From positions 1-47,216 of IMG/VR virus record IMGVR_UViG_3300031702_000009: a DNA stretch of 47,216 nt; one strand, written 5' to 3'. The notes below the pieces were generated by a model that was not told the origin of the DNA, searched no databases, and was given only the letters and a program-made list of their open reading frames with translations. The stretch is from a virus. The position numbers and the translations under genes were made by a program. Positions 4,048-41,090 of this stretch are shown piece by piece; position 1 is the first letter of the stretch; every line of letters begins with the position of its first letter.

Positions 4048-4662
4048 TTAGCGTTTCACAACAACTTTGTCTGCTAGTCCGTGTTCTACTGCTTCTTCGG
4101 CAGTAAGGAATGTATCAAACTTCATTGTTTCAAATAGTTCGTCATATGTCTTACCAGCTGTGTTGTGACGCACATAAAGTTCTGTAAGACGTTTGTTTAC
4201 TTTCATTGATTCATTAAATGCTCGTTGTGCATCTTCAAACTGTAGCTCTTGTACGTGTACACTACCTGAAGTGCCTCGTGTGCCTGAGCTTACTCTGTGA
4301 ATCATTGTACGTGCTTCTGGCAATATATTACGCTTACCTGCTGTGCCTGCCATAGCTAGGAATGATCCCATACTACACGCTTGACCCATTACAATAGTAC
4401 GCACATCACATTTGATGAACTGCATAGCATCGTAAATAGCAAGACCTGCTGTTACTGCACCGCCTGGACTGTTGATGTACAGATTAATCTCTTTGTCAGG
4501 ACTAACACTTTCTAAGTATAGCAGTTGCGCTACAATAATATTAGCCATGTTGTCTTCTACTGGACCGTTAAGCATAATAATGCGGTCTTTCATTAAGCGA
4601 CTGTAAATATCGTATGCACGTTCGCCGCTTGACTCTTTTTCAATTACTGTTGGGATTAGCAT
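4048..4662 (-). CDS. clpP: ATP-dependent Clp protease proteolytic subunit ClpP
   Basis: 204 residues. All features of the self-compartmentalised serine protease are present: NSPGG oxyanion region near 64-68, nucleophile Ser97 in QACSMGS, His122 in MIHR, and the Asp of KFDTFLT near 183. The handle region between His and Asp is somewhat longer than in E. coli ClpP. ClpP degrades proteins unfolded by ClpX or ClpA. No Clp ATPase is encoded in the window, so it presumably works with host ATPases. ClpS (17098) and a tmRNA whose tag ends in ALAA (27215) are encoded by the same phage. Confidence 0.95.
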
Positions 4663-4683
4663 TTAAGCATTCCTTTGTTGTGG

Positions 4684-4905
4684 TTAATCTTTATATGTGT
4701 GTTCAACTGGTCCAGGTGTAGTAAACTCCATGCCTAACATGTTGCCTACGTAAATACGCCCGTTCCAGATCATTGGAATCTTGTTTGCTACCAAGTATGC
4801 ATCTAGCCGTTCCTTGTGTCGAAAGTTACCAACTTCTGCTTCAGCAACTACATCGTTACGAGTGTTAGTTAACATACATACTTCTTCAAATCTGCTTCTT
4901 ATCAT
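4684..4905 (-). CDS. Small hypothetical protein
   Basis: 73 residues from ATG 4905 (AGAAGG upstream), overlapping the preceding gene by 20 bases. A second Met at residue 11 is an alternative start. It is mostly soluble with an aromatic, Gly-rich middle (IPMIWNGRIYVGNMLGMEF) that may form a small beta structure. No family recognised. Part of the run from the gene at 6007 down to clpP. Confidence 0.6.
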   Translation of the reverse strand: MIRSRFEEVCMLTNTRNDVVAEAEVGNFRHKERLDAYLVANKIPMIWNGRIYVGNMLGMEFTTPGPVEHTYKD

Positions 4906-5158
4906 TATAACCTTCTAATTTTAAGTTTAAAACAAAGTTCTCTACAGTTAGTTTAACACAAGTAGCCATTAATGTCAAGTACTTTTCTGCCATATCGTTA
5001 TCAGTTACGTTGCCGAACTGTTCTAGCATGTGGTTTGACATTAATAGATATGCTTGTTCTTCCCGTATCGCAAGTTCGCCCCAGTCGATTGGATCAACTG
5101 ACTCTGTGCTGTATGCAAGATCTGCAAGTTGGTTAACAGTAATTTGTTTTACGTTCAT
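4886..5158 (-). CDS. Small hypothetical helical protein
   Basis: 90 residues, acidic and predicted mainly helical by composition. No Cys cluster, signal or known motif apart from a repeated Leu/Met-rich pattern (YLLMSNHMLEQF, YLTLMATCVKLTVENF). It lies one base after the gene at 5160-5384 and overlaps the next gene, so it is co-transcribed. Confidence 0.6.
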   Translation of the reverse strand: MNVKQITVNQLADLAYSTESVDPIDWGELAIREEQAYLLMSNHMLEQFGNVTDNDMAEKYLTLMATCVKLTVENFVLNLKLEGYNDKKQI

Positions 5159-5159
5159 A

Positions 5160-5384
5160 TTAATGTAAAGTTTCTCCCACGGCGTCTGGTGCGTTTGGAT
5201 CTACACCCCAGTATTTCATTAAAACTGCGCTAATCTCAATTGGTACCAAACTGTCTTCTTGTCCAGTTGGTATCCATAGTCCTTTTAGCTCTCCCTTTTT
5301 AGATAGGATCAGACCGAAATCGTCATCTCCAATTGAGTCATCGAATGTTGTACTAAGTTTTTTAATTTCTCTTGATTTTGACAT
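5160..5384 (-). CDS. Small hypothetical protein overlapping tilS
   Basis: 74 residues. It begins inside tilS and overlaps its last 76 bases in another frame; AGGTG lies nine bases before the ATG. The sequence is acidic (FDDSIGDDDFGL) with a hydrophobic patch GELKGLWIPTG. No motif recognised. The long overlap is unusual even for this compact genome. Confidence 0.6.
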   Translation of the reverse strand: MSKSREIKKLSTTFDDSIGDDDFGLILSKKGELKGLWIPTGQEDSLVPIEISAVLMKYWGVDPNAPDAVGETLH

Positions 5385-11395: not shown

Positions 11396-14002
11396 TTATT
11401 TGTATTGCATGTCGACCATTGCTTCATGCTTTATTTGACTTGCTAGGCCGTTTAATAACCCTCTTTTATTTTCAGGCACTTTGCTTGCATTGTATATACT
11501 GTCACTTCCATAAAAATCTCCAGCTACTTGGACTTGTCCTCCGTAGGTAGTAAACCCTGGTAAGAAGTTAATTAGCGCACTTATTTGTGCTTGGATTGCC
11601 GCTTGTTCTTTTAAACTAGTAGCGGTTGCCATATCCTTTGCTAAACTTACTAACTTGTTTTTAATAATTTCTTTCATCTTCTTTTTCTTTGCAACGGCTT
11701 TTTGTTCAGCTGTCATCTTTGTTGGCTTAACTACTTTCTTGGCAACGGCGGTAGTTCCTTCAGTATCATCACCGGCTTCGCCATCTGTTCCTTTGTCTGG
11801 GGATCCATCACTTTCATCATCTGATCCGTCTTTATCCACTGACTGTTCCACATCACTACTGGGCTCTTCTTCTGCCTCTTCTTTATCATCAGTTACCTCT
11901 TCTTCCTTGACTGCCTCTTCAACTACTTCTATTTCTTCTATTTCTTCAACTACTTCTACTTCTTCTACTGCTAGTTCGTCTTCAATAAGTTCGCTCATTG
12001 TTTCTACTTCTACTTCCATTTCAATTTCAATAACATTAGCATCTAGCTGTGCCATTTCCATCTCAACTTCTGCTTCAATTGATTCAACTAGTATCTCTAA
12101 CTCAACTAACTCAGCTTTTTGTTCAACTTGGGCTATACTAGCAAGTGGAGCAATAACTGGCCCTGCTACTTCAAAGCTATTAAACGACTCAACTATTACT
12201 GGAGTATCAAATGCTGTTTCAACTGCAATTTCAATTGGTACTATTTCTTCAACTACTTCCATTACTGGTGCTTCGACTACTTCCATTTCTATTATAACTA
12301 CTACCGGTGTATCATTAATAATTGAATCTATAACTGCATCACCTGTTATTGAAACCTCTGTAATAGATTCAGCACTAATAATGTCAGCTGTATTGTCTGC
12401 AATATCTTCTGCTGTTGTAGTGCCGTCATCTACATCAGGAGTTGCATCATCAATTACTACTGCTACTGTGTATCCCGGACACCCTGGATTATATAATGCA
12501 TTAATACTACACTGATTATCAAAGTATGCAATTTCGTAGTTGGGACAAGTTGTATCGTATAACCCGCTTGCTGTACATTGCTGACTAAAGTATGCCGCGG
12601 CATAACCTGGGCAAGTACTGTCGTATAACGCACTAATGCCACACTGCTGATTAAAGTATGCTGTTGCGTAACCAGGGCACTGACTGTCATACAGCGTGTT
12701 TAAGCTACATTGTTGATTCAAATATGCTGTTGCATACCCAGGACAAGTACTGTCGTATAACGCACTAATGCCACACTGTTGATTAAAGTATGCTGTAGCA
12801 TACCCAGGACAAGTGCTGTCGTATAACGCACTAGCTGTACATTGTTGATTAAAGTATGCTGTTGCATAACCCGGGCATCCTGAATCGTATAATGCACTTG
12901 CTGAGCATTGTTGGTCGTAATAAGCTGAGGCATATCCCGGACAACCACTGTCGTATAATGCACTTGCTGAACATTGTTGGTTGTAATATGCTGTAGCATA
13001 TCCTGGACACCCACTATCGTATAATGGGTCACTACTACATTGCTGATTGTATTGTGCTGTTGCATAGCCGGGACATCCACTGTCATATAATGCACTTGCT
13101 GAACATTGTTGGTTATAGTGTGCATTTGCATAACCTGAACATCCACTATCGTATAATGGATCAGCTGAACATTGTTGATTAAAGTATGCTGTTGCATAAC
13201 CTGAACATCCACTATCGTATAATGCATTTGCATTACATTGATTGTTATATTCATTAGATGCGTATGCTTCTGAGTAACCTGGACAACTAGTACTATGTAG
13301 CGGAGTATTTGTGCAAATATCTGTAGAAACTATAATGTCGCCGACCATGTTTTTAACTTTAGGGCCGTAATTTCCTGCCCAGAAACCAGCATCATACCCT
13401 TGAAGAAGAATATCAACAGTACTGATCTCAGTACCTGGAGTTGATTGAGTAGTGCCTATCCAACTTAATATTTGTGTTGAAATCCAGTCGTCAGTAACTG
13501 CTTGACCGTAATCAAATGTCTGTTCGTAAACATGAGTTCCATCTGCAGACTTAGCTGTTATTGATAAAGTTAATGGATCAATACATACGCCATTAACTTT
13601 TTCAACTAGACAATTACCGTTAATAGTATTAGTTTGATTATTGCGATAATCAAACGTAGTTCGATATCCGTCTATCTTAAGACCAGATCCTGCTAGTGCT
13701 TGTGTTATTGCATGTTGTATTGCCCAAGATCCTGGATTGTGTTTAAAGCGGACAAAGCCATTATGTCCATTGCCGACTTCTGTACTAGCACCAGTTGTAG
13801 TGCCGCCAGTTAATCCACTTTGTACATTTACGGTTGATTGCGAATGTGTGTCGCTGGCACAGCCCGTTCCAGTGATAAAGTTTGTAGTACCATCAGTACT
13901 ACAATTACTAGATGTTAATGTTTCGGCGTAGGCGTTATTAGAGCAGGAGTAACAAAAGACCAACACTAAGAGCGCCGTAGCCAGCACCTTTAAGTACGTC
14001 AT
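11396..14002 (-). CDS. Large exported protein with twelve Cys-rich 22-residue repeats
   Basis: 868 residues from the ATG after AAGGAGAAAAAGGGAA. The signal peptide is MTYLKVLATALLVLVFCYSC..., cleaved after AYA at about residue 25. An N-terminal globular domain (about 25-250, with several Cys) is followed by twelve tandem repeats (NQQCSASALYDSGCPGYATA type, 22 residues, two Cys each). Then come a long acidic Val/Ile/Glu/Thr-rich stretch, a Lys-rich linker, and a C-terminal domain with FLPGFTTYGGQVQVAG. The two Cys in every unit suggest disulfide-bonded repeats outside the cytoplasm. It could be a surface or periplasmic phage-encoded adhesin or shield, or a tail protein; none is proven. Confidence 0.75.
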   Translation of the reverse strand: MTYLKVLATALLVLVFCYSCSNNAYAETLTSSNCSTDGTTNFITGTGCASDTHSQSTVNVQSGLTGGTTTGASTEVGNGHNGFVRFKHNPGSWAIQHAITQALAGSGLKIDGYRTTFDYRNNQTNTINGNCLVEKVNGVCIDPLTLSITAKSADGTHVYEQTFDYGQAVTDDWISTQILSWIGTTQSTPGTEISTVDILLQGYDAGFWAGNYGPKVKNMVGDIIVSTDICTNTPLHSTSCPGYSEAYASNEYNNQCNANALYDSGCSGYATAYFNQQCSADPLYDSGCSGYANAHYNQQCSASALYDSGCPGYATAQYNQQCSSDPLYDSGCPGYATAYYNQQCSASALYDSGCPGYASAYYDQQCSASALYDSGCPGYATAYFNQQCTASALYDSTCPGYATAYFNQQCGISALYDSTCPGYATAYLNQQCSLNTLYDSQCPGYATAYFNQQCGISALYDSTCPGYAAAYFSQQCTASGLYDTTCPNYEIAYFDNQCSINALYNPGCPGYTVAVVIDDATPDVDDGTTTAEDIADNTADIISAESITEVSITGDAVIDSIINDTPVVVIIEMEVVEAPVMEVVEEIVPIEIAVETAFDTPVIVESFNSFEVAGPVIAPLASIAQVEQKAELVELEILVESIEAEVEMEMAQLDANVIEIEMEVEVETMSELIEDELAVEEVEVVEEIEEIEVVEEAVKEEEVTDDKEEAEEEPSSDVEQSVDKDGSDDESDGSPDKGTDGEAGDDTEGTTAVAKKVVKPTKMTAEQKAVAKKKKMKEIIKNKLVSLAKDMATATSLKEQAAIQAQISALINFLPGFTTYGGQVQVAGDFYGSDSIYNASKVPENKRGLLNGLASQIKHEAMVDMQYK
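12455..13246 (-). repeat. Twelve tandem 66-bp coding repeats
   Basis: In-frame 66-base repeats encode 22-residue units N-Q-Q-C-x3-x-L-Y-D-S-x-C-P-G-Y-A-x-A-Y-x. The central units are the most alike and the last two the most divergent, as expected of an array growing by recombination. A degenerate unit without the NQQC start precedes the array (DICTNTPLHSTSCPGY). Confidence 0.9.
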
Positions 14003-15847: not shown

Positions 15848-15855
15848 TATTTATA
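15848..15855 (-). promoter_or_regulatory. T4-like late promoter TATAAATA
   Basis: Perfect TATAAATA on the minus strand 22 bases upstream of the start at 15826, overlapping the end of the bilin reductase gene. Confidence 0.7.
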
Positions 15856-16537
15856 CGATTTTAGGAAACAACATGTCTGTGCAGAACTTGTCTACGTCTG
15901 CTTCGTCTAGTCCTAACGATTTCATTGTGCGAGGAGTGTGTGGATTCTTTTGCTGGTTTTCACAGTAGTAATTCTGTGCGCCGATAACCATATCGCTATT
16001 CCCACTGCCAGTAAATTCGCCTATCTCATCAAAGTATGCACGTAGGTTATCTTGTGCTAGTTCTATAATAGCAACTGCTTCGTCAATGTCACTTACATTG
16101 CCTGCGGCAAGCATCTTATCTGTAAAGATGTTAGTTGCCCACTCAGGTAGTACACGTTGCTTGCTTGGAATAAATTCTGCTACTGCTTCCTTATAGCCTG
16201 CAATCATAGGATTGTCGTGATCACTACTAGGACTAAAGTCGTGAAATGCACCTGTCATTTTGTTCTTGCCTGCAATAACATCAAAGCCGTATATTGGGCC
16301 ATCATTTTGTATTACAGGAAATACACATACATGCATCATCCACAAGCCTTTTGACTCACGTGCATCTACAACATCAATGTGTGCTCTGCGTACATCATCA
16401 TTACGCCAAACACGGTTAACCCATGTGTCGCTGTTAAAGTGTGCAAGACCTGGCTCGTCATATTCTGTTGCCTTTTCATCAAAGATACTAATTATTTCTT
16501 TTTGGCATTCAATTAGCCTATCCCAAATAACGCTCAC
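15851..16537 (-). CDS. pcyX: Ferredoxin-dependent bilin reductase, PcyX-like
   Basis: 228 residues. The segment WMMHVCVFP...PIYGFDVIAG...DFSP is the core of the bilin reductase family: the His of MHVCVFP and the Asp of GFDVIAG match PcyA catalytic His88 and Asp105. The position of PcyA Glu76 appears to be Asp (AHIDVV). The enzyme reduces biliverdin with electrons from ferredoxin. PcyX, a PcyA relative from oceanic viral metagenomes reported to make phycoerythrobilin, is the closest description I know; the product here is inferred. The start overlaps the heme oxygenase stop (ATGA), so biliverdin is made by the upstream gene. This pathway is odd for a phage lacking photosystem genes. Confidence 0.85.
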   Translation of the reverse strand: MSVIWDRLIECQKEIISIFDEKATEYDEPGLAHFNSDTWVNRVWRNDDVRRAHIDVVDARESKGLWMMHVCVFPVIQNDGPIYGFDVIAGKNKMTGAFHDFSPSSDHDNPMIAGYKEAVAEFIPSKQRVLPEWATNIFTDKMLAAGNVSDIDEAVAIIELAQDNLRAYFDEIGEFTGSGNSDMVIGAQNYYCENQQKNPHTPRTMKSLGLDEADVDKFCTDMLFPKIV

Positions 16538-17091
16538 GCTTCTTCTTCCTTGGATAGCTGTTGAAACATCTTAGTTGCAAAGTCAAAGCATACTTTTGCT
16601 TCGTCTGCCATACTGTCATTTAACTTGTCTCTAATTCTTTCTTTAAGCTCGTCTATGCTTTGATGAAAGTCAAACATTGTACCTTTGCCTGGTACACGAG
16701 TTCTAATCATTTGTCCACCACTTAGGTCTCCCATGTGGCGCACATATACATGTGCCATAATTTTATCTTTGTCTGTCATAATAGATCTAATATAAGTTAC
16801 ATACTCTTGTACAACAGGCAATACTTCTGGATGTATTTCTTCTGGATGCGGCCATAGTTCTTTATAGTCGGCCATTATCTTTTGAGAGCGTCTAATACTA
16901 GGAATGTCATTAAACAACCCATGCATCATTGCAATTGATTCTAATACATCATACATCGGAAACTGGTTGTAAAGAAACGTAGCATAACGCTCGTCACTTA
17001 TTTGTGTCTTCTTATTAAACATTTCTTTAACAAAGGTCTGACGTTCTGCATTCTTGTGATGCTCCCACGTTAGTTCTTTTAAGTTACTCAT
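16534..17091 (-). CDS. ho1: Heme oxygenase
   Basis: 185 residues. The heme-ligand His lies in TWEHHKNAE (near residue 11), and the distal-helix signature YVRHMGDLSGGQ is near 115-126, as in bacterial and cyanophage HO1. The enzyme opens heme to biliverdin, CO and Fe(II), using reduced ferredoxin. The downstream bilin reductase gene is translationally coupled to it. Release of iron from host heme is a second possible benefit. It lies six bases after clpS. Confidence 0.93.
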   Translation of the reverse strand: MSNLKELTWEHHKNAERQTFVKEMFNKKTQISDERYATFLYNQFPMYDVLESIAMMHGLFNDIPSIRRSQKIMADYKELWPHPEEIHPEVLPVVQEYVTYIRSIMTDKDKIMAHVYVRHMGDLSGGQMIRTRVPGKGTMFDFHQSIDELKERIRDKLNDSMADEAKVCFDFATKMFQQLSKEEEA

Positions 17092-17097
17092 ACTATA

Positions 17098-17403
17098 TTA
17101 GTCCTCTTCTAATTTTATCTGTAGCGGAAAGCCGTTATTACGACTGCGTGTCATTGCCTCGACACTCTTCTGTTCAGCTATCTCATAACTATATATGCCG
17201 GCTACGCCAGAACCTTCGCCATGAATGGTTAGCATAATCTTTTCAGCTGATGCAATACTGTGCTTAAACGTTTCTGTAAGCAATCCTATAACCCACTCCA
17301 TCGGAGTTGAATCATCATTAACCATAACAACTTTATACTTACTAGGCGGCTGGTGTGTGACGATGATTTTTTCGTCTAATTCAATATCGACGTCTGTACT
17401 CAT
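17098..17403 (-). CDS. clpS: ClpS adaptor protein
   Basis: 101 residues. PSKYKVVMVNDDSTPMEWVI followed by IMLTIHGEGSGVAGIYSYEIAEQK and PLQIKLEE matches the ClpS fold, including the NDD motif and MEWV helix that bind N-degron residues. ClpS delivers N-end-rule substrates to ClpAP or inhibits other substrates. The phage also encodes ClpP, so it could re-target host proteolysis. It is the first gene of the clpS-ho1-pcyX run, beyond the hairpin at 17421-17445. Confidence 0.92.
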   Translation of the reverse strand: MSTDVDIELDEKIIVTHQPPSKYKVVMVNDDSTPMEWVIGLLTETFKHSIASAEKIMLTIHGEGSGVAGIYSYEIAEQKSVEAMTRSRNNGFPLQIKLEED

Positions 17404-17979: not shown

Positions 17980-18645
17980 TTATGCATATGAATGAGACAA
18001 CACTGAATATTTTGACATAGCTGCCATATTCAATCTTATCTCTAATCTACGCTTTGGTATAAACAGATACGTCCTGCCAAGTGTTTCATCAATAAATGGC
18101 ACATCAATACTGCGTGTTCCCCTAAACTTCATTTCTGCAAGTAAATTGGGGTTGTTGCATTGTACTACTTTCAACAAGCAATACCAAACTTGTTTAAGGG
18201 TTTTGTCACGTACACATGCTAGTACATGTAGATTTTTATTCTTTTGAGTCTTTTCAACAAACGGTTCTATGAACATTTCTTTTAGTGAAGAAAAGTCGCC
18301 TTGCTTAAACAAGCCAACAGCATGATCATTCTTCTCTTTAATGTTTTGTAGAATACTAGCTTCAGTAGTAAGTCCAGTCATTTTTGAACAACTAATACCT
18401 TTAACATCAATGTCAAGGTTAGGTGCAGACACATCAATAACATTTTTGCCTGCTCCTACCCACGACGCTCCATCAATACTATCAGCCACCGCATATTCCC
18501 ATGCTTCTTTAGCAAGGATAACATCTCTACCATTATTAAGATACGGCTTATAATAAGCCCGCATTTGATCAGCAAATTTGGCACTAAAGTCCGGGCCAAG
18601 TAATTCGTCATGTTGGGAAATTGGTACTGGTTCGTATTTAATCAT
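17980..18645 (-). CDS. PD-(D/E)xK-like protein
   Basis: 221 residues. [10 protein letters not shown]...[27 protein letters not shown] (about 47-86) has the order Glu helix, Asp, D-x-D-x-K typical of restriction-like nucleases: NLDIDVKG would supply the D...DxK residues. The rest is unrecognised. It overlaps guaC by ATGA and so is translated with it. It could be a host-DNA nuclease feeding nucleotide recycling; this is inference only. Confidence 0.5.
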
Positions 18646-19820
18646 TTTGCATATACCGCATTAAACTGTTGAGTAACACGCACAAAGGTTGTGCATTTAC
18701 TAAGTTGTTTTAGTTTCATTGCTCCGGCATATGTGCATGTGCTACGTATGCCACCTAATAGATCCTGTATCGTGTCGTTTACTGCTCCGCGATACGGAAC
18801 AAGTACTTCACGTCCTTCACTCGAACGATAATCTTTAAGTCCACCAAAATGTTTTGTGTTTGCCGCATCACTTGACATACCGTAGAACTGCACAAACTCT
18901 TTTGTTTCAATTTTACGTGTATGATTATCTAGGTGCGAGCCAAGTTGATAAACTATCTCATTTGTTTCATAATGTTTAACAATAGTTTCACCGCCACCTT
19001 CATCGTGCCCGGCAAGCATACCGCCAAGCATTACAAAGTCTGCCCCGCCAGCGAAAGCCTTAGCCACATCACCAGGACAAGTACAGCCGCCATCAGCGAT
19101 AATATGTCCACCAAGTCCATGCGCCGCATCTGCGCACTCAATGACTGCACTAAGTTGTGGATATCCGACTCCTGTTTGGATTCGTGTTGTACATACGCTT
19201 CCTGGTCCGATTCCAACTTTAACAATGTCTGCTCCTGCAAGTATCAACTCCTCTGTCATTTCTCCGGTAACTACGTTACCTGCTATAATTACAATATTTG
19301 GAAATGCATCACGCACTCTTTTAACATGGTGTGCAAAGTGTTCTGAATAACCATTTGCAATATCTATACACACATACTTCAGCAAGTCACCAACTGCGCC
19401 TATAACAGCGGATAGTTTGGCAAAGTCTTCCTTGCCTGTACCAATGCTCATTGCTATATATTTAGAACGTTGTAGTGGTCCACCTTGGAATGGGTTATCA
19501 AAGAACTCAATTAGCTCTTCTAAACTGTATGTCTTAACCAAACAAGTAAAAATGTTTTGTTTAGCAAGTGTATCTGCCATTTCAAATGTACCAACGCCGT
19601 CCATGTTACTTGCCATAATAGGAACACCGCGATAGTGTTCTTCAACATATGGGCCTGCTGGATAACCGTCAGGTAAGACATCTGTTGCTACACAGGGCGT
19701 ATAGTTGCGGAAAGTAAACTTACGTTCTAACTTTACTTCTTTACGTGAGCCTAGTGTGCTTCGCTTAGGACGTATAAGAACGTCCTTATAATCTAATTTA
19801 ACATCCTGGTCAATTCTCAT
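18642..19820 (-). CDS. guaC: GMP reductase (GuaC)
   Basis: 392 residues, an IMPDH/GMPR barrel. [20 protein letters not shown] contains the catalytic Cys and the GMPR-type continuation (IMPDH differs here). [26 protein letters not shown], the YRSSEG loop and [10 protein letters not shown] also match GMPR. No CBS domains. It is slightly longer than typical GMPR (about 345) because of an insertion near residues 40-60. It converts GMP to IMP with NADPH and so links guanine nucleotides from degraded host nucleic acid to adenine nucleotides. Alternative: a divergent IMPDH-like enzyme, less likely. Confidence 0.9.
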
Positions 19821-27474: not shown

Positions 27475-27503
27475 TTTATAACATGTTTACGCTACTTTGT
27501 CAA
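27475..27503 (-). promoter_or_regulatory. Sigma-70-type promoter of the tmRNA
   Basis: Minus strand TTGACA, 17-base spacer, TATAAA. The -35 box lies in the last codons of the Rieske-like gene. Confidence 0.82.
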
Positions 27504-28572
27504 CCTTTTCCTTTAAAGGGTTAGAAGGATCTACGTCTAAGTACTTTGCCCACTCTGCATAGAAGTGACGCATGCCAACTTCATCATGTATAGTGTTGTT
27601 TTCATGTCTGCCATGTAGTATGCTTCTCTTCTCAGTGCCAGGAGCCATAGCTACGCCTTGTCCGGTAACAGCCAACAAGTCTTCGTGCAAGTTACGTCCG
27701 AACGGTCCCCATATTGTATTGTGATCATTTATACGTTGTTCGCGTTCTTCCGGAGTATCACTTAACAAACCGTATCCACGGAACTCAATTAATACACTGT
27801 CTGGACCTAGTGGAGTAATACTATCTGTACGGTAAGCACTGCCTCGTAGGTTAAAGTTGTAGCCTGGAAACAAGTCTACCATGTACCACTGGTTGGGCGG
27901 AACTCCTGGAAAGGTTAATGCTCCACGGTCTGCGGCTCCTTCAAACTTGTCATACTGCACTTCGAAGCTACCAACGTTAACGTGTCCGTTGTCAAAGCCT
28001 GTACATGCACGAGCAAAGTACTCATCAGTGAATCCAGTTATTCTATTAAAGTAATGTAAATAGTCGTGATAGAACTCACTGTTAGTGTCATGCCATAACT
28101 TATAGTTTGTAGGAATGATTGCTTTATGGTAATGGAATACTTCTAGTTCTTCTGTGTCAATTGCTGTAGCAATACAATCAAATGCACCGTCTGTCCATTG
28201 CTCTACGTCCATGGTTGGGTTATCGTTTAGTGTTGTCCATACCATGCCGCCATATTTTACTTCGCTGTGTAACTCTCTAGATTCAATTTTATAGTCTGGA
28301 TCAACTGTACCAGCTACTCCCTTGAGTCCAGGATTGATATAGCATCCAATACGATCACCGTGATTGATTATAACTATGTTTCGAAATGCAATTTGAGATG
28401 TTCGATAGTCTCCTGGATTCTTTATTTCACTCTTGTGAATGATAGGGATCCAAACTTTAGAAAATATCTTTTCGATTTCTTGTTTGTAAATTTCATGACT
28501 ACTGTAGCACTCGCTACTTATGTATTCGACTGTTGGTTCTGCTAACCAATCTTTGTGGTTTCTTGCACCCAT
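27487..28572 (-). CDS. Rieske-oxygenase-like protein lacking the Fe-S cluster ligands
   Basis: 361 residues. The N-terminus (YKQEIEKIFSKVWIPIIHKS followed by PGDYRTSQI) and the C-terminal domain follow ring-hydroxylating oxygenase alpha subunits. The catalytic domain keeps NYKLWHDTNSEFYHDYLHYF, with His169 and His173 as mononuclear iron ligands, and an acidic candidate in NLHEDLLAV. The Rieske motifs CxH and CxxH are missing: the places where they should be read CYINPGLKGV and SEVKYGGMVW. It therefore probably cannot bind a [2Fe-2S] cluster. It could be a catalytically altered oxygenase or a binding protein. A ferredoxin reductase gene lies 0.6 kb upstream. Confidence 0.75.
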   Translation of the reverse strand: MGARNHKDWLAEPTVEYISSECYSSHEIYKQEIEKIFSKVWIPIIHKSEIKNPGDYRTSQIAFRNIVIINHGDRIGCYINPGLKGVAGTVDPDYKIESRELHSEVKYGGMVWTTLNDNPTMDVEQWTDGAFDCIATAIDTEELEVFHYHKAIIPTNYKLWHDTNSEFYHDYLHYFNRITGFTDEYFARACTGFDNGHVNVGSFEVQYDKFEGAADRGALTFPGVPPNQWYMVDLFPGYNFNLRGSAYRTDSITPLGPDSVLIEFRGYGLLSDTPEEREQRINDHNTIWGPFGRNLHEDLLAVTGQGVAMAPGTEKRSILHGRHENNTIHDEVGMRHFYAEWAKYLDVDPSNPLKEKVDKVA

Positions 28573-32366: not shown

Positions 32367-34682
32367 TTAAATTGCGCAACTATCGCAAAATTCATCGTAC
32401 TCATCGTCAGTACCTGAAAATTCTGATCGTTGTAATGCTGGTAATGCTGTGTCATCTGGTAGTTCATTTGGGTCTACTTTGTAATCATATGTGTTCTGAT
32501 AGTAACTTGTCTTCCAACCCATCTTATAAGTTGTTAGTAAGTCCTGCATCATTACACTCATTGGTACTTCGTTGTCTGGAAACTGTGTAGGATTGTATGA
32601 CCAGTTACCACTAATGCCTTGATCAAAGAACTTTTGCATTACTGCAACGATATTGATGTAGCCTTCGTTACTAGGCATATCCCATAGCAATGTGTAGTGA
32701 TTCTTTAGAGTCTGAAACTGTGGAACAATCTGCTTAAGAGGCCCTTTTTTGGATAATTTAGTGGACAAGTATCCCCTAGGTGGTTCAATTCCGTTTGTGG
32801 CATTTGACACAACGGACGAGCTCTCTGAAGGCATTTGTGCTGACAAAGTGCTGTGCCTGAGTCCGTGCTCGGTGATATCATTCCGTAAAGTATCCCAATC
32901 ATAATTTAACTTGTGCTCCACAATAGTATCAACATCTTTCTTATAAGTGTCTATAGGAAGTATGCCATCACTGTATTTAGTGCGATCAAAGTAATCACAT
33001 GGACCACGCTCTTGTGCAAGTTTATTGCTTGCTTTGAGCAAGTAGTACTGGAATGCTTCACTCAAGTCGTGTACTAATTGCCATGCTTGCTTGTCTGCAT
33101 ACATTACTTTATTCTTTGCAAGGAAGTGTGCTAGGCCAATGTAGCCTATACCTAAACTACGTCTTGCTTTAGTTGACTTCTCAGCAGCCGCTATTGGATA
33201 GTTTTGATAGTCAATAATTTCTTCTAGCGCACGTACTGCTAGTTCACATAGTTCTTCTAAGTCACTTACGTCTTTAATAAGTCCTACATTAATAGCACTA
33301 AGGATACACAATGCAATTTCGCCTTCTTCGTCATCAATGTGATTAAGTGGCTTAGTTGGCAATGTAATCTCTTGACATAAGTTGCTCATGTACACTTTGT
33401 CTTTGAACGAGCTGTGTGTATTTGCATGGTCGACATTCATAATATAAATGCGCCCTGTCTCTGCACGTTCTTTAATTAACGCACTAAACAAATCCATTGC
33501 TGATACTTTAGTTTTCTTAATGCTTGTAGCACGTTCATACTTCTCGTATAGTTCTTCAAATAGTGCTGGGTCGCCAAAGTATGCTTCATACAACCCAGGT
33601 ACTTCGTGTGGCGAGAATAGAGTTATGTCACCGCCAGATAACAACCGTTCATACATAGTTTTGTTTAACTGTATGCTGTAGTCTAGTTTGCGTACACGGT
33701 TGTCTTCGGTGCCCTTGTTGTTCTTTAGAACAAGGATGTCTTGAATCTCTTGATGCCACAACGGAAAATGTGTAGTAGCACTGCCGCCTCGCACACCATT
33801 TTGTGTACAACAACGAACTGTTGCTTCAAACTTCTTCATAAACGGGACAATACCTGTGTGTGCTACTTCGCCACCACGTATCTTAGCGTTTACACCACGA
33901 ATTCGTCCTGCGTTAATGCCAATGCCTGCTCTTTGAGCAGTGTAGCGGCCAATAGCCATATCACTTGCAAAGATACTATCAAGTGTATCATCTGCATCAA
34001 CAAGCACACAACTTGCAAACTGACGAACTGGAGTACGCACCCCTGCCATAACTGGAGTTGGAATATTAATTTTAAATAATGATGTTGCATCGTAATAACG
34101 TCTTACGTACTGCATACGTGTTTCTTTAGGATACTGTGCAAACAATGTTGCCGCAACCATCATGTACATAATTTGTGGAGTTTCAAAAATAGCTCCAGTT
34201 GAACGATCCTGTACTAGATACTTGTCTACTACTTGACGTAGTCCTGCGTATGTAAAGTTTTCATCGCGCTTGTGCCGCATGTAACTATTAAGTTGATCTA
34301 GTTCATCTACAGAATAATCAGTTAGAACAGTCGGATCATATAATCCACGTTCAATGTTTTTCTTAATCATTTCAATTAGTGTGATTGGAGCGTATTCGCC
34401 AAACACTGCTTTGTTAGTTGTATAAGATAGTAACCGCGCCGCGGCATACTGGTAATTGGGTGTTTCTAAGTTGATTAGATCGTTTGCTGATCTAATTAAT
34501 ACTTCTTGTATTTCGTTTGTACTCATTCCGTCATAAAATTGTAAATTAGCATTCATCTCAATTTGTGAACTGCTAACCCCTGCTAGACCTTCACATGCTT
34601 CTGCGACTACAACATGAATTTTATCAATGTTTAGTCTTTCTTGCGTACCATTACGCTTTACAACCATAATTCCGTTTGACAT
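32367..34682 (-). CDS. nrdA: Ribonucleotide reductase class Ia alpha subunit
   Basis: 771 residues. An N-terminal ATP cone (VVKRNGTQERLNIDKIH) is followed by the catalytic barrel: RQFASCVLVD (redox Cys), GGVRGG, MSNLCQEITLPTKPLN and ALCILSAINVG (radical and partner Cys), and MPSESSSVVSNATNGIEPP. The C-terminal CDSC tail is the dithiol recharged by glutaredoxin. Similarity to the gammaproteobacterial/T4-like class Ia enzyme is strong throughout. AGGAG lies in front of the ATG. An AATAAATA at 34717-34724 may be a weak late-type promoter. Confidence 0.97.
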   Translation of the reverse strand: MSNGIMVVKRNGTQERLNIDKIHVVVAEACEGLAGVSSSQIEMNANLQFYDGMSTNEIQEVLIRSANDLINLETPNYQYAAARLLSYTTNKAVFGEYAPITLIEMIKKNIERGLYDPTVLTDYSVDELDQLNSYMRHKRDENFTYAGLRQVVDKYLVQDRSTGAIFETPQIMYMMVAATLFAQYPKETRMQYVRRYYDATSLFKINIPTPVMAGVRTPVRQFASCVLVDADDTLDSIFASDMAIGRYTAQRAGIGINAGRIRGVNAKIRGGEVAHTGIVPFMKKFEATVRCCTQNGVRGGSATTHFPLWHQEIQDILVLKNNKGTEDNRVRKLDYSIQLNKTMYERLLSGGDITLFSPHEVPGLYEAYFGDPALFEELYEKYERATSIKKTKVSAMDLFSALIKERAETGRIYIMNVDHANTHSSFKDKVYMSNLCQEITLPTKPLNHIDDEEGEIALCILSAINVGLIKDVSDLEELCELAVRALEEIIDYQNYPIAAAEKSTKARRSLGIGYIGLAHFLAKNKVMYADKQAWQLVHDLSEAFQYYLLKASNKLAQERGPCDYFDRTKYSDGILPIDTYKKDVDTIVEHKLNYDWDTLRNDITEHGLRHSTLSAQMPSESSSVVSNATNGIEPPRGYLSTKLSKKGPLKQIVPQFQTLKNHYTLLWDMPSNEGYINIVAVMQKFFDQGISGNWSYNPTQFPDNEVPMSVMMQDLLTTYKMGWKTSYYQNTYDYKVDPNELPDDTALPALQRSEFSGTDDEYDEFCDSCAI

Positions 34683-37075: not shown

Positions 37076-37795
37076 TTATTCCTTGAGCTCACTGTAATAT
37101 TGATGTACACGTTCGTACCATTCGTTCTTCCACTCATTGTATTCATGTGGCCAAAGATCAAACTGTTGATATGTTTCGCCGCCTAGTGCCATGCCATCGT
37201 CACCGCGACTACACATAAAAATATGTCCTTGGCGAATGTTTGTACCAAAGTTTTCGTTGTGTGCTTCTGCGTATGCAACCATTTGTAAGTAGTAATCTTG
37301 TACCCACTCTAGTTTCTTAGGCTTGTTAGTTTGCTTAAAGTCCATAATACAAGGTTCGCCCTTGTATTGTCCTACTAAGTCACACATACCTGCATACAAC
37401 TTTGGTACGTAAAGTGCTACTTCACTACCCCAAATCTCATCAACGTTTACCATAGCTGTGTCACGTATAACTTCAGCCATACGATGCGCTTTGATAGCAA
37501 ACGGATTGCTTCCTGGAGTCGGTAACTCGCCGTAGTCAACATAGTCTTCTAGATACTTGTGCATCCGTGTGCCTACACCACTTGCTTCAGTTACAATTTC
37601 TTGTGCTTTCTTTTCACCAACACGTCTCTTCCAAGCTATAAGGTGTGACATATCTTTAGTTGCACTAAGGATTGTTGTTACACTAGCAACAGCACCGCCA
37701 TCGGGTGTCATGTACTTACGCTTGCCTGTTACTGCATCAGTCTTACGAGATATCTTTTGGTAATCAAACTTACCTTCCATTATTAAACTAGCCAT
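37076..37795 (-). CDS. RecB/Cas4-like PD-(D/E)xK exonuclease
   Basis: 239 residues. GVGTRMHKYLEDY (motif of the helix that places the first acidic residue), YAGMCDLVG (Asp), PCIMDFKQTNKPKK (D-x-K) and DYYLQMVAYA (QxxxY) appear in the correct order for RecB-type exonucleases. Comparable phage proteins act in replication and recombination. The stop lies five bases before the next gene's start, and it overlaps the preceding NifU-like gene by one base (TAATG). Confidence 0.85.
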   Translation of the reverse strand: MASLIMEGKFDYQKISRKTDAVTGKRKYMTPDGGAVASVTTILSATKDMSHLIAWKRRVGEKKAQEIVTEASGVGTRMHKYLEDYVDYGELPTPGSNPFAIKAHRMAEVIRDTAMVNVDEIWGSEVALYVPKLYAGMCDLVGQYKGEPCIMDFKQTNKPKKLEWVQDYYLQMVAYAEAHNENFGTNIRQGHIFMCSRGDDGMALGGETYQQFDLWPHEYNEWKNEWYERVHQYYSELKE

Positions 37796-38181
37796 TATAC
37801 TGCTCCGTCATCTTTGTCTGTAGCAATCATGTCAGTAGGTTGATAATCCTGACTGTCATGATAATCCTGGCTTGGTTCAAATCTACTGTAGTCATTCATA
37901 TCAAAGTCGTTGTAGTATGGCTGGACATTACTAACTCCGTCTTCTGCATCTACAGTTGTTACTTCTGGAACATAATGTTTAATCATTTGCTCTACACCTT
38001 GTCTAAGGGTAGCAGTACTACCAGCACAACCGGAGCATGCGCCGCCTAGTTCTAATAGTAAGTGTCCGTCTGTATATGATGTGAATTCAATAGTACCGCC
38101 GTGACCGGCGACCGCAGGTTTAACTTGCTCTTCAATTAATTCTTTGATTTGTGTGATGATATCATCATCTGTTCTAGCCAT
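37795..38181 (-). CDS. NifU C-terminal domain Fe-S carrier (NfuA-like)
   Basis: 128 residues. Residues 8-75 form the Nfu domain: VKPAVAGHGGTIEF and GACSGCAGSTATLRQGVEQM with the CxxC (Cys49, Cys52) that binds a [4Fe-4S] cluster. The remainder is an acidic, Tyr/Asp-rich disordered tail. The A-type scaffold domain of host NfuA is absent. It can deliver clusters to Fe-S enzymes. Coupled to the exonuclease gene; some RecB-type nucleases carry a cluster, but this one shows no obvious cluster Cys. Confidence 0.88.
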   Translation of the reverse strand: MARTDDDIITQIKELIEEQVKPAVAGHGGTIEFTSYTDGHLLLELGGACSGCAGSTATLRQGVEQMIKHYVPEVTTVDAEDGVSNVQPYYNDFDMNDYSRFEPSQDYHDSQDYQPTDMIATDKDDGAV

Positions 38182-38239: not shown

Positions 38240-38557
38240 TTATATGCCAGTATTTGCAGTAGTTGCTGATTTAGCCATGTTAGCTACTGTGTTATCGCCT
38301 TTAGCATCTGCTGTAGGTGCATCGTTGCCGCTGCCAAACTCAATGTGATCTTTGTCAAAGTTTGCAATCAATGAGGCAAGACCTTCGTCTGCATCATAGG
38401 CTGCTTTGAATACTTCGTAGTTAAATTGTACTTGGAGGGCATTCTGCATTATCAAATCTAGCTCATCGAACGTATAATCTTTACGTTCGTTGTTCGATAA
38501 TACTTTAAGAACTTTGTAGAGTTTGTCTGTACTTACAGACTCAGTTACTTCTTTTTT
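38240..38557 (-). CDS. C-terminal extension reached by -1 frameshift (or separate small gene from about 38449)
   Basis: This frame opens exactly at the A-run at the end of the upstream gene (a stop lies just before it) and runs 105 codons to TAA at 38240. No ATG, GTG or TTG with a ribosome-binding site occurs in its first 30 codons. The translated product stays protein-like throughout: STDKLYKVLKVLSNNERKDY, FDELDLIMQNALQVQFNYEV, then an acidic, Ala/Thr-rich end. A -1 slip at A-AAA-AAG would fuse it to the 262-residue protein at 38545-39333, giving about 364 residues. If not fused, a minimal gene could start at the TTG or ATG near 38449-38455 (69-71 residues). Confidence 0.6.
   Translation of the reverse strand, partial: KKEVTESVSTDKLYKVLKVLSNNERKDYTFDELDLIMQNALQVQFNYEVFKAAYDADEGLASLIANFDKDHIEFGSGNDAPTADAKGDNTVANMAKSATTANTGI
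38525..38557 (-). promoter_or_regulatory. Putative -1 ribosomal frameshift signal
   Basis: Slippery heptamer A-AAA-AAG (38557-38551 on the minus strand) stands in the zero frame of the upstream gene, one codon before its stop (AAG TAA). Ten bases downstream a hairpin GTCTGT-AAGT-ACAGAC (6 bp) follows. Layout and heptamer match the dnaX-type -1 frameshift element. Confidence 0.6.
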
Positions 38558-39333
38558 TTAGACAGTACTTGCCCAAGTTTACGTGAACGCTCAATTGACT
38601 CACGTTGTGGTCGACCTGCAGGCTCTTCGCCTCCAGCTGCCGGAGCACTTGCGCCCATGCCATCGTCCATGTCTGCCATTGCATCACCGTCATCCATGTC
38701 GTCAGTTGGTTCCATTGCTGGCTCTTCCATATCCATGTCTGGCTCTTCTGCGCCCATAGTATCTACTGGCTCGCCTTCGCCTGTTAGCATGCCTACGCCG
38801 CCTGTTAGTGCAATACGTGTCACTTCCATCTCAGCATATAATGCATCAAGAGCTGGCTTAATTGAAGCTGTAAATGCTTCTGCTGTCTCTGATCCCATTT
38901 CGTCTCTAATAGCGTCGGCTAGTTCTAACATAGACTCTGACTGCATTTCTGCTGTGTCTTCCATCCAACCTGTTAGCTTGTCTACCATATCCTTTGAAGC
39001 CATTACTAACTGTGCTTTGTCTTCTTCGCCTTCAGTTACTATTGTTTCAGCAAGATCTTCTGCTGTTGGGATGCCTTTTTCGTCAGCACGTTCAATGATA
39101 GCTTGGTTCAAAACGTCTAGGAACAGTTTTGACTTCTGATAGCTTTCAGTGTGTACTGCGTTGAAACTTTCATTAGTTTCAATATCTCGTACTTGTGAAC
39201 GCAACTTGTTACGTGCATCTTCTAGCTGTTCAAAGTTGAACTTCTCTAAGTCAAGGTTAGTTCCAAATTTCTGAGCAAGACTTTCGTTTAGTGTTGCTGA
39301 TGTTATCTTCTTTGATATTTCTCTAATGTTCAT
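38545..39333 (-). CDS. Late virion or assembly protein with acidic, Met/Asp-rich tail
   Basis: 262 residues. The N-terminal two thirds are helical (LEKFNFEQLEDARNKLRSQV, ESYQKSKLFLDVLNQAI), in the style of prohead-core or virion proteins of T4-like marine phages. The C-terminal third has acidic low-complexity (DMDMEEP, DDMDDGDAMADMDDG), then a basic end (RSRKLGQVLSKKKK). It is preceded by a late-type promoter (39373-39380). The A-run coding for the KKKK end forms a possible -1 frameshift site that would replace the tail. Confidence 0.65.
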   Translation of the reverse strand: MNIREISKKITSATLNESLAQKFGTNLDLEKFNFEQLEDARNKLRSQVRDIETNESFNAVHTESYQKSKLFLDVLNQAIIERADEKGIPTAEDLAETIVTEGEEDKAQLVMASKDMVDKLTGWMEDTAEMQSESMLELADAIRDEMGSETAEAFTASIKPALDALYAEMEVTRIALTGGVGMLTGEGEPVDTMGAEEPDMDMEEPAMEPTDDMDDGDAMADMDDGMGASAPAAGGEEPAGRPQRESIERSRKLGQVLSKKKK

Positions 39334-39382: not shown

Positions 39383-39805
39383 TTAACAGTATATATAGTT
39401 ATCCAAAAGGGAACATGCTTGCTCCGTTCTCGAGAGTGCAACATCTAATCTAATAGATAACACATCTTTTCTAAAATCATCGTTACTCTTTTCATAACTG
39501 TTTTTAAAGTATACTGAGTCCATATAGTTCTTTTCTATAACTTTATCAATCTTTAAAATATCGTCTGAAGCATCTTGTTTATTGTCTACTACATTCTTAG
39601 CTAATGCAATTGCACTTGCTTTACTAAATGTGTGCCCAGCTTGTTTGTTAAGCTCGGTGTTATATACCAAGTAGCCGTGTTTGCTTTTACGGATTACCAT
39701 TTTGCCTATGCGAATGCTATTCCCTTTAACATATGGAAAAGGAAAATCTTCGAAGCTTTTGTTAATAATAGCTTCTAGCTCATTTATTAGTAATTTGTTG
39801 TCCAT
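39383..39805 (-). CDS. Hypothetical phage protein
   Basis: 140 residues, mixed alpha/beta. YVKGNSIRIGKMVIRKSKHG and GYLVYNTELNKQAGHTFSKA suggest a small beta domain, followed by a helical C-terminus. It overlaps the preceding gene by 26 bases. Member of the run 46246-39383 of probable virion and assembly genes. Confidence 0.65.
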   Translation of the reverse strand: MDNKLLINELEAIINKSFEDFPFPYVKGNSIRIGKMVIRKSKHGYLVYNTELNKQAGHTFSKASAIALAKNVVDNKQDASDDILKIDKVIEKNYMDSVYFKNSYEKSNDDFRKDVLSIRLDVALSRTEQACSLLDNYIYC

Positions 39806-39998
39806 TTTGTGTTACCAGAGTATACCCATTGTTGTGTACTTTACTTACTAAACTCTTGCGTATGAGATTGTTCATTATGGTTTGATCTCGCTCGTCAAAA
39901 CTCTCTAAAGGCATTGCTCCTTTAATAGAATTATAAAGCTTCTTCTCCTCATTACTCATTGCAATTGTAAACTCTGATATCAGATCATTGATTTTCAT
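39780..39998 (-). CDS. Small hypothetical protein, winged-helix-like
   Basis: 72 residues: two or three helices (EEKKLYNSIKGAM, DQTIMNNLIRKSLV), then a beta hairpin (NGYTLVTQNGQQI), an order seen in small winged-helix proteins. Coupled by ATGA to the preceding gene. Confidence 0.6.
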   Translation of the reverse strand: MKINDLISEFTIAMSNEEKKLYNSIKGAMPLESFDERDQTIMNNLIRKSLVSKVHNNGYTLVTQNGQQITNK

Positions 39999-40447
39999 GA
40001 ACTTTGGTTCCCTATTGTGCCGTTTGGTCCGCCGCCGCTATCGCCCTGGAGACCTTTTACAATAGTATCAATATCTGCTTTTTTGTATGTTAATTTCTCT
40101 GGCTCTTCAGGAGCCTTAGATGCGTCTGGATTAATAAGAGTTACTTCATCACCTTGCACATCATCAATTTCAAATTCTGCTTCTTGACCGCCTTTTGTTG
40201 GCATTGGGATAGAAGATCCCTTTTTAACTAACTGTTTGTTAAGTGTGTCATTTGCTTTGTTAGCTACTTTAGAAGCTACGCTAGAACCTACTGCGGCAAG
40301 TTTTTTGCCTACTGTACTTCCTGCAACTGCTTTAACTGCTGACTTGCCAACGTTGGCCGCCCCTCTAGCTACTGCTCCTGCAATGGCTGGAAGAACTTCG
40401 TCTGTACGGTTTTCAACTTTTTCAATTTTGAATTCACTGTATCTCAT
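39995..40447 (-). CDS. Phage protein of the MRYxEFK group
   Basis: 150 residues. The start MRYSEFKIEKVEN matches the N-terminus of the proteins at 14699 (MRYQEFK) and 43639 (MRFVEFK), perhaps a shared targeting or processing signal. An Ala/Val/Lys-rich, helical region (IAGAVARGAANVGKSAVKAV) and an acidic C-terminus follow. It overlaps both neighbours by ATGA. Role unknown, probably virion or core. Confidence 0.6.
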   Translation of the reverse strand: MRYSEFKIEKVENRTDEVLPAIAGAVARGAANVGKSAVKAVAGSTVGKKLAAVGSSVASKVANKANDTLNKQLVKKGSSIPMPTKGGQEAEFEIDDVQGDEVTLINPDASKAPEEPEKLTYKKADIDTIVKGLQGDSGGGPNGTIGNQSS

Positions 40448-40776
40448 ATCTTCTTCCTTCCTTTTGCAAATCTTCTCTTCGGACGTTTATTAATACGTGA
40501 CAAACGTTTCGAAGCTGAATTTGTTCTTTTGGTCTTTGCTGTAGCAATTTTAATCTTACTACCTTTTGATCGTTTTGTTTTCTTTAGTGTTACTCGAGCT
40601 TTTTGATTAATAGGAGCATTACATGTAGCCGCTTTGGCAACAATACGTCCTTTACGTTGCCCACTAGTACAACGGAACTTACGAACTTGTTTGCTTCCGC
40701 TTCTACTCCAAATAGGAGTTGCGCCTTCAACTGTTAACGGTTCCCAGTCGGTACTTATAAGCTCTCGCAAGTTCAT
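40444..40776 (-). CDS. Highly basic paralogue A
   Basis: 110 residues, over a third Lys/Arg. WSRSGSKQVRKFRCTSGQRK, then GRIVAKAATC and KARVTLKKTKRSKGSK align along the whole length with the next gene (40773-41090), so the pair arose by tandem duplication. Two conserved Cys. The charge suggests a DNA-binding or DNA-condensing protein packaged with the genome (inference). Confidence 0.7.
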   Translation of the reverse strand: MNLRELISTDWEPLTVEGATPIWSRSGSKQVRKFRCTSGQRKGRIVAKAATCNAPINQKARVTLKKTKRSKGSKIKIATAKTKRTNSASKRLSRINKRPKRRFAKGRKKI

Positions 40777-41090
40777 CTGCGTCTACTGCTCTTGTTCATT
40801 GCTTGTACTCTGCGACTAGCTGGATTCTGCCTCTTAGTACGTTTTGCTTTACGGATCATTCGCTTGCCTAATCTAGCTTTAGTCTTTTTAAGTGTAAGTC
40901 TAGCTTTCATATTAGGTGCGGCAAAACATGATGCTGGAGTTGCTACAATCCTGCCATGTCGTTTGCCACCTGAACATCGATACTTACGGACTACCTTTTT
41001 TCCATTACGGGCCCATACTTGTTTCTCTCCAATAAGCTCGTCATTGGATTCAATAGGTGGTGTTGATGTGTATAACTCTCTTAATAACAT
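40773..41090 (-). CDS. Highly basic paralogue B
   Basis: 105 residues. WARNGKKVVRKYRCSGGKRH, GRIVATPASC and KARLTLKKTKARLGKRM match the neighbouring paralogue. The C-terminus is nearly all Lys/Arg (NPASRRVQAMNKSSRRR). A GCTAAATA late-type element sits only six bases before the ATG and there is no good ribosome-binding site, hinting at a leaderless or downstream start. Confidence 0.7.
   Translation of the reverse strand: MLLRELYTSTPPIESNDELIGEKQVWARNGKKVVRKYRCSGGKRHGRIVATPASCFAAPNMKARLTLKKTKARLGKRMIRKAKRTKRQNPASRRVQAMNKSSRRR

Follow-up and report, generated by a model that had tools for sequence, protein, structure and literature searches.

The window, by which we mean the whole 47,216-nt stretch of viral DNA analysed here, carries on its minus strand a gene whose reading frame closes on TCT AAA AAA AAG AAG TAA, and the question raised by this locus is whether ribosomes always terminate there. 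The sequence-only reading had singled out an A_AAA_AAG heptamer in frame one codon ahead of the stop, a 6-bp hairpin ten bases past it and a -1 frame that opens at the heptamer and runs for 103 codons, which would give two C-termini, at 262 and about 364 residues. These features are all present at the positions collected in Table 1, and the lengths hold on recount, the fused product comprising 261 + 103 = 364 aa; a larger downstream structure had been missed. The answer we reach is that programmed -1 frameshifting probably allows the gene to yield two virion proteins from a single start. The site, its frame and conservation, the selection acting on the extension, the synteny and the existence of a separate-gene state are established at the level of sequence.

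Table 1. Features of the frameshift locus and its neighbours, in window coordinates
Feature	Position	Strand	Remarks
0-frame ORF, 262 aa, ATG start	39333..38545	minus	mostly helical virion structural protein
Slippery heptamer A_AAA_AAG	38551..38557	minus	within A8 run 38552-38559
0-frame stop TAA	38545..38547	minus	one codon past heptamer
-1 frame extension, 103 codons + stop	38240..38551	minus	EVTESVSTDK...MAKSATTANTGI
Stop codon of the extension	38242..38240	minus	
Proximal hairpin GTCTGT-AAGT-ACAGAC, 6 bp, 4-nt loop	38525..38540	minus	10 nt past heptamer; probable stimulator
Larger distal stem-loop inside the extension	38441..38512	minus	inner 8-bp hairpin 38467-38489
NifU-like domain protein, neighbour	37795..38181	minus	
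PD-(D/E)XK exonuclease, neighbour	37076..37795	minus	synteny marker
Ribonucleotide reductase large subunit, neighbour	32367..34682	minus	synteny marker common to GAP32, CBB, Paride
Upstream genes sharing a short N-terminal leader (MKINDL, MRYSEF, MNLREL, MLLREL)	39780..41090	minus	

The 0-frame protein, predicted to be mainly helical, begins with a leader, MNIREIS, and has a conserved helical core at approximately residues 100-185; in its C-terminal half, an acidic disordered linker (approximately residues 190-243) is followed by a C-terminal helix and the sequence SKKKK. The earlier description of this ORF as a late gene is reasonable, given the homology to virion proteins described below. 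Among the upstream genes, two adjoining small basic proteins at 40444-41090 are alike (MLLREL... and MNLREL..., each with a K/R-rich tail) and are probably a tandem duplication.

Elsewhere, the window carries metabolic genes, encoding a heme oxygenase (16534-17091), a ferredoxin-oxidoreductase-like protein (15851-16537), an IMPDH/GMP reductase domain (18642-19820), the alpha subunit of a Rieske-type ring-hydroxylating oxygenase (27487-28572) and two 2OG-Fe(II) oxygenases. ClpP (4048-4662) and its adaptor ClpS (17098-17403) are phage-encoded in this one genome, and a PHROG match to 'head maturation protease' at 4048-4662 proved to be the ClpP gene. Within a 914-aa ORF that has no family matches, a 66-bp unit is repeated ten times in tandem (12553-13231).

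Relatives of the gene pair were collected from IMG/VR, which was scanned four times, and from a single scan of GTDB contigs. With the window included, 288 loci were analysed, of which 153 differ from one another across the gene pair. According to profiles of both parts, 278 of the 288 have the extension in the -1 frame; of the remaining ten, two are on contigs that break off too soon, one is a duplicated stretch and seven have the extension as a separate ORF. The duplicated stretch, a second copy of the gene end and extension in one contig (L006, ~4500-5300), was set aside as an apparent duplication or misassembly. The frameshift-type loci supply 146 distinct sequences, drawn from IMG/VR and from two MAG contigs, and every one (146/146) has an in-frame heptamer where the 0 and -1 frames overlap, A_AAA_AAG in 131 and A_AAA_AAA in 15. 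The A-run is 6, 8, 9 or 10 nt long; A9 occurs in 113 sequences, and nine sequences of a single clade have only A6. Run length and the separate-ORF form change some 18 times on the tree, and the heptamer is never lost among the frameshift-type sequences. AAA-AAG encodes 131 of the 146 Lys-Lys pairs at the slip site, compared with 96 of 422 elsewhere. A Shine-Dalgarno-like stimulator is not enriched upstream of the site (27/146; control position, 45/146). In four loci, two in-frame heptamers, A9 and then A6, lie close together ahead of the stop (L150 3409-3438, L277 3424-3453, and also L164 and L282). The expectation that relatives would keep the A-run and its frame was thus borne out throughout, while the expected downstream structure is kept in most lineages and is missing from one A9 clade. 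The arrangement that would speak against frameshifting, in which both parts are fused in one frame with no slippery site, was not found among the relatives.

The extension evolves as a coding sequence. Over 32 independent pairs with an extension dS below 0.7, dN/dS in the extension is 0.02-0.55, similar to that in the 0-frame part; among eleven more distant pairs, which are partly saturated or misaligned, several values lie near 0.9. We conclude that the extension is protein-coding and under purifying selection. The glutamate at extension residue 4, just past the slip site, is invariant among 51 sequences, and no ATG, GTG or TTG occurs within the first 20 extension codons in 91 of 146. In the window, the extension had been described as having no usable start, and its candidates, TTG 38455 and ATG 38449, indeed sit inside the conserved domain; they are unlikely starts because residues preceding them are conserved (E4, L15 and L31). 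The predicted topology is H-E-H-H-E-E, with an AF2 pLDDT of ~80-85 over residues 11-70, and the best structural matches are mostly winged helices, with Z scores of 5-6.5 and no Foldseek E-value below 0.001. With moderate confidence, we predict from this model that residues 8-72 form a winged-helix-like domain; a conserved tail, V-x-x-MAKxAT, accompanies it. Searches of PHROGs and Pfam with the extension gave chance-level matches only.

As controls for folding downstream of the site, we used synonymous recodings, which leave the peptide unchanged. The 30-nt segment holding the proximal hairpin of the window is more stable than expected from 1000 such recodings (z -2.7, p 0.016), and the 110 nt that include the distal structure are more so (z ~ -5.4). 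Among relatives, the mean z just past the site is -1.2, and 37% of 71 lineages fall below -2, compared with a background of 7%; a second folding peak lies ~45-60 nt downstream, and the mean z of the 110-nt segment across 70 lineages is -2.0. One clade shows compensatory changes (22 double-change cells; 0/500 shuffles). No downstream structure was found in one clade of A9 members, and no universal pseudoknot or hairpin was found downstream of the site, the structures varying by lineage. Downstream structure is a likely stimulator of frameshifting. In the window and its relatives, a strong distal hairpin lies at a similar position, ~45-110 nt past the slip site, with lineage-specific sequence; in one clade, it is a perfect 9-bp stem with compensatory changes. 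The distal fold is partly retained in the relatives with a separate extension ORF and, for that reason, may not serve frameshifting; it may have another role.

The 0-frame protein has relatives among cultured phages at the level of profiles. It matches phrog_14154 (E 9.6e-10), as do 50 of 51 relatives, and its remote, profile-level homologues are Atu_ph07 gp044, GAP32_293, CBB_298, Paride_0034 and a Phosso protein, all virion structural proteins from T4-like jumbo phages; hhalign gives 90-95% for the comparison with GAP32_293, Paride_0034 and Atu_ph07 gp044. The homology is visible by profile only, as tblastn searches of cultured phages with the protein and with both parts of a diverged relative returned no match. 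The Kyanoviridae relatives of the upstream DUF6267 gene (S-WAM1 and Melnitz) have no match to the 0-frame protein. The order helical virion protein, small protein, exonuclease, ribonucleotide reductase is found in GAP32, CBB and Paride; in Atu_ph07, the exonuclease likewise lies downstream of the homologue and is 43% identical to that of the window. T4-type gp23 and gp21 are encoded on the 357-kb contig of one relative.

In the cultured phages with a homologue, the virion protein gene is followed immediately by a small gene of its own, ~104-132 codons long, whose product starts MRFSQITED, MRLSEIINES, MRLIDLLESS or VKIKDILVES. The pairs CBB_298/299 (equivalent to GAP32_293/294), Atu_ph07 gp044/gp043 and Paride_0034/0035 have the same gene order as the locus studied here but are two ordinary genes with their own starts, a leader on the small one and no heptamer at the junction. 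Mass spectrometry has identified both CBB_298 (10 peptides) and CBB_299 (2 peptides) in CBB virions (PMC5259590). The extension matches GAP32_294 weakly (hhalign probability 14%, E 0.002), and no sequence homology to the small proteins of Atu_ph07 and Phosso is detectable. When the two parts were queried separately in Foldseek, both matched Atu_ph07 proteins (A0A2L0UZ88 and A0A2L0UZ86), the small one weakly. Position, size, weak fold matches and the leader point to homology between the extension and the separate small gene, although by sequence the relationship is weak. Given the homology of the 0-frame protein, the gene order and the CBB virion data, it appears that -1 recoding joins two virion proteins in the marine clade.

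The separate form also occurs within the marine group. In the seven relatives L103, L106, L142, L145, L147, L135 and L136, the first ORF ends without a heptamer, and the extension is encoded apart, in an ORF that opens with an ATG and a short leader; the leaders are MKVSEILKE, MRVSEILKEE, MKIFELYEA, MKVFELYEE or MRVSDIILEE. A hybrid, L123, combines an in-frame heptamer with an ATG that opens such a leader. L147 is nested inside the frameshift members of the tree, and the frameshift and separate-gene strategies may have interchanged more than once; a rooted tree, in which the outgroup branches are very long, did not distinguish an ancestral from a regained separate-gene form. These split relatives, together with the adjacent gene pairs of the cultured jumbo phages, extend the frameshift interpretation and do not contradict it. 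The leader pattern opens eight ATG ORFs of the window against 0.15 expected, a post hoc count since the pattern was drawn from the window itself; in relatives, it opens 180 of 425 upstream genes (0.6 expected) compared with 1 of 199 downstream. By analogy with the capsid-targeting sequence shared by the internal head proteins of T4 (PMC3012670), we propose that the leader is a head-targeting signal. The T4 sequence is likewise a short conserved N-terminal signal on otherwise different head proteins; the likeness of the present leader to it is a motif resemblance drawn from counting.

The extended protein could also arise if RNA polymerase added an A within the run, ordinary translation of the altered transcript then yielding the longer form. 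Bacterial RNA polymerase slips efficiently in vivo on runs of nine A or T (PMC5009743), the length found in most of the distinct sequences. The serine codon TCA is moreover favoured before the Lys run (112/123 versus 181/293), a preference that hints at selection for the ninth A, and members lacking structure are all A9 (15/58 versus 0/12 of others, p 0.057). Against this, the A8 of the window and the A6 of one clade fall short of the approximately nine A or T associated with transcriptional slippage, AAA-AAG is favoured over AAA-AAA at the site, and there is excess structure just downstream; such structure fits ribosomes, because the RNA downstream has not yet been made when the polymerase slips. 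We regard polymerase slippage as an unlikely sole source of the extended protein, but it may contribute in the A9 members, and for the window, the product would be identical whether polymerase or ribosome slips. Ribosomal -1 frameshifting fits best, accounting for the slippery motif, its phase, the AAG preference, the structure, the A8 of the window and the A6 clade.

Much less probable still is translation of the extension on its own, by reinitiation or from an internal start at TTG 38455 or ATG 38449. The ATG-started ORF of the seven split relatives, the leader-bearing ATG that accompanies the heptamer in the hybrid and the separate genes of cultured phages are what such a reading would draw on; however, the window and most relatives have no start ahead of the conserved region, the internal starts of the window would delete helix 1 and conserved residues 4-31, and conservation of the in-frame heptamer would be left unexplained. 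The site is also a homopolymer and, as such, prone to indel errors, which raises the thought of a sequencing or assembly error, or else of a frameshift mutation fixed in a dying gene. The same A8 is found in three near-identical contigs from other metagenomes, which in practice excludes homopolymer error; the same frame relation recurs in ~278 loci from many metagenomes, and both parts are under purifying selection. We consider the error and dying-gene readings refuted, with a negligible chance of being correct.

Under programmed -1 frameshifting, most ribosomes would stop after ...SKKKK and release the 262-aa, mainly helical protein. A fraction would slip back by one base at A_AAA_AAG, a motif that in E. 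coli is one of the most efficient for -1 slippage (PMC4066793), aided in most lineages by downstream RNA structure, and would produce the 364-aa form with its C-terminal winged-helix-like domain. Both forms would enter the head, targeted there by the N-terminal leader that they share, and the rate of slippage would set their ratio. Should the small domain bind nucleic acid, a minority of the protein copies would bring a nucleic-acid-binding tail into the head in a proportion fixed by slippage. In cultured Rak2-like phages, the small protein is apparently a separate virion gene product with its own leader; in the marine clade, the domain, having neither leader nor start, would reach the virion only as the frameshift tail of its neighbour. 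We lean slightly towards a history in which the recoding site replaced an independent virion gene, so that a DNA-binding-like head protein lost its start and leader and is now made as the frameshift tail of the adjacent protein.

The site is widespread in a large ocean-dwelling family of uncultured jumbo phages. Ordinary annotation would miss it, so that ~100 codons belonging to a virion protein would either go unannotated or be taken for a spurious short gene. Since relatives exist in frameshift, separate-gene and, in one case, hybrid form, they offer a natural comparison of why viruses use recoding, which might serve to fix the stoichiometry, to bring both products into the head together, or to do both.

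Tail chaperone and coat genes supply the best-known phage frameshifts, and the present one lies in a different virion protein. Its closest mechanistic counterpart is E. coli dnaX, where A_AAA_AAG is also followed by a downstream stem-loop. In dnaX, slippage leads to a shorter product and is assisted by an upstream Shine-Dalgarno-like stimulator, whereas here the slip gives the longer product and an upstream element of that type is not enriched. The coat proteins of T7/T3 (gene 10) and of Lactobacillus phage A2 acquire a C-terminal domain by -1 recoding (PMC5009743), and Listeria phages, too, are known to extend virion proteins at the C-terminus by frameshifting. As in T7/T3 and A2, part of a virion protein would gain a C-terminal domain by -1 recoding; those genes, however, encode coat proteins, and their extensions are Ig-like or of other kinds, whereas the gene studied here belongs to T4-like jumbo phages and its product is an acidic, helical virion protein. 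Unlike in T7/T3 and A2, the added part appears in relatives to be a virion gene in its own right. Searches of papers outside subscription journals and most preprints returned no earlier report on this gene. The mechanism is of a known kind, and the gene and its history appear new.
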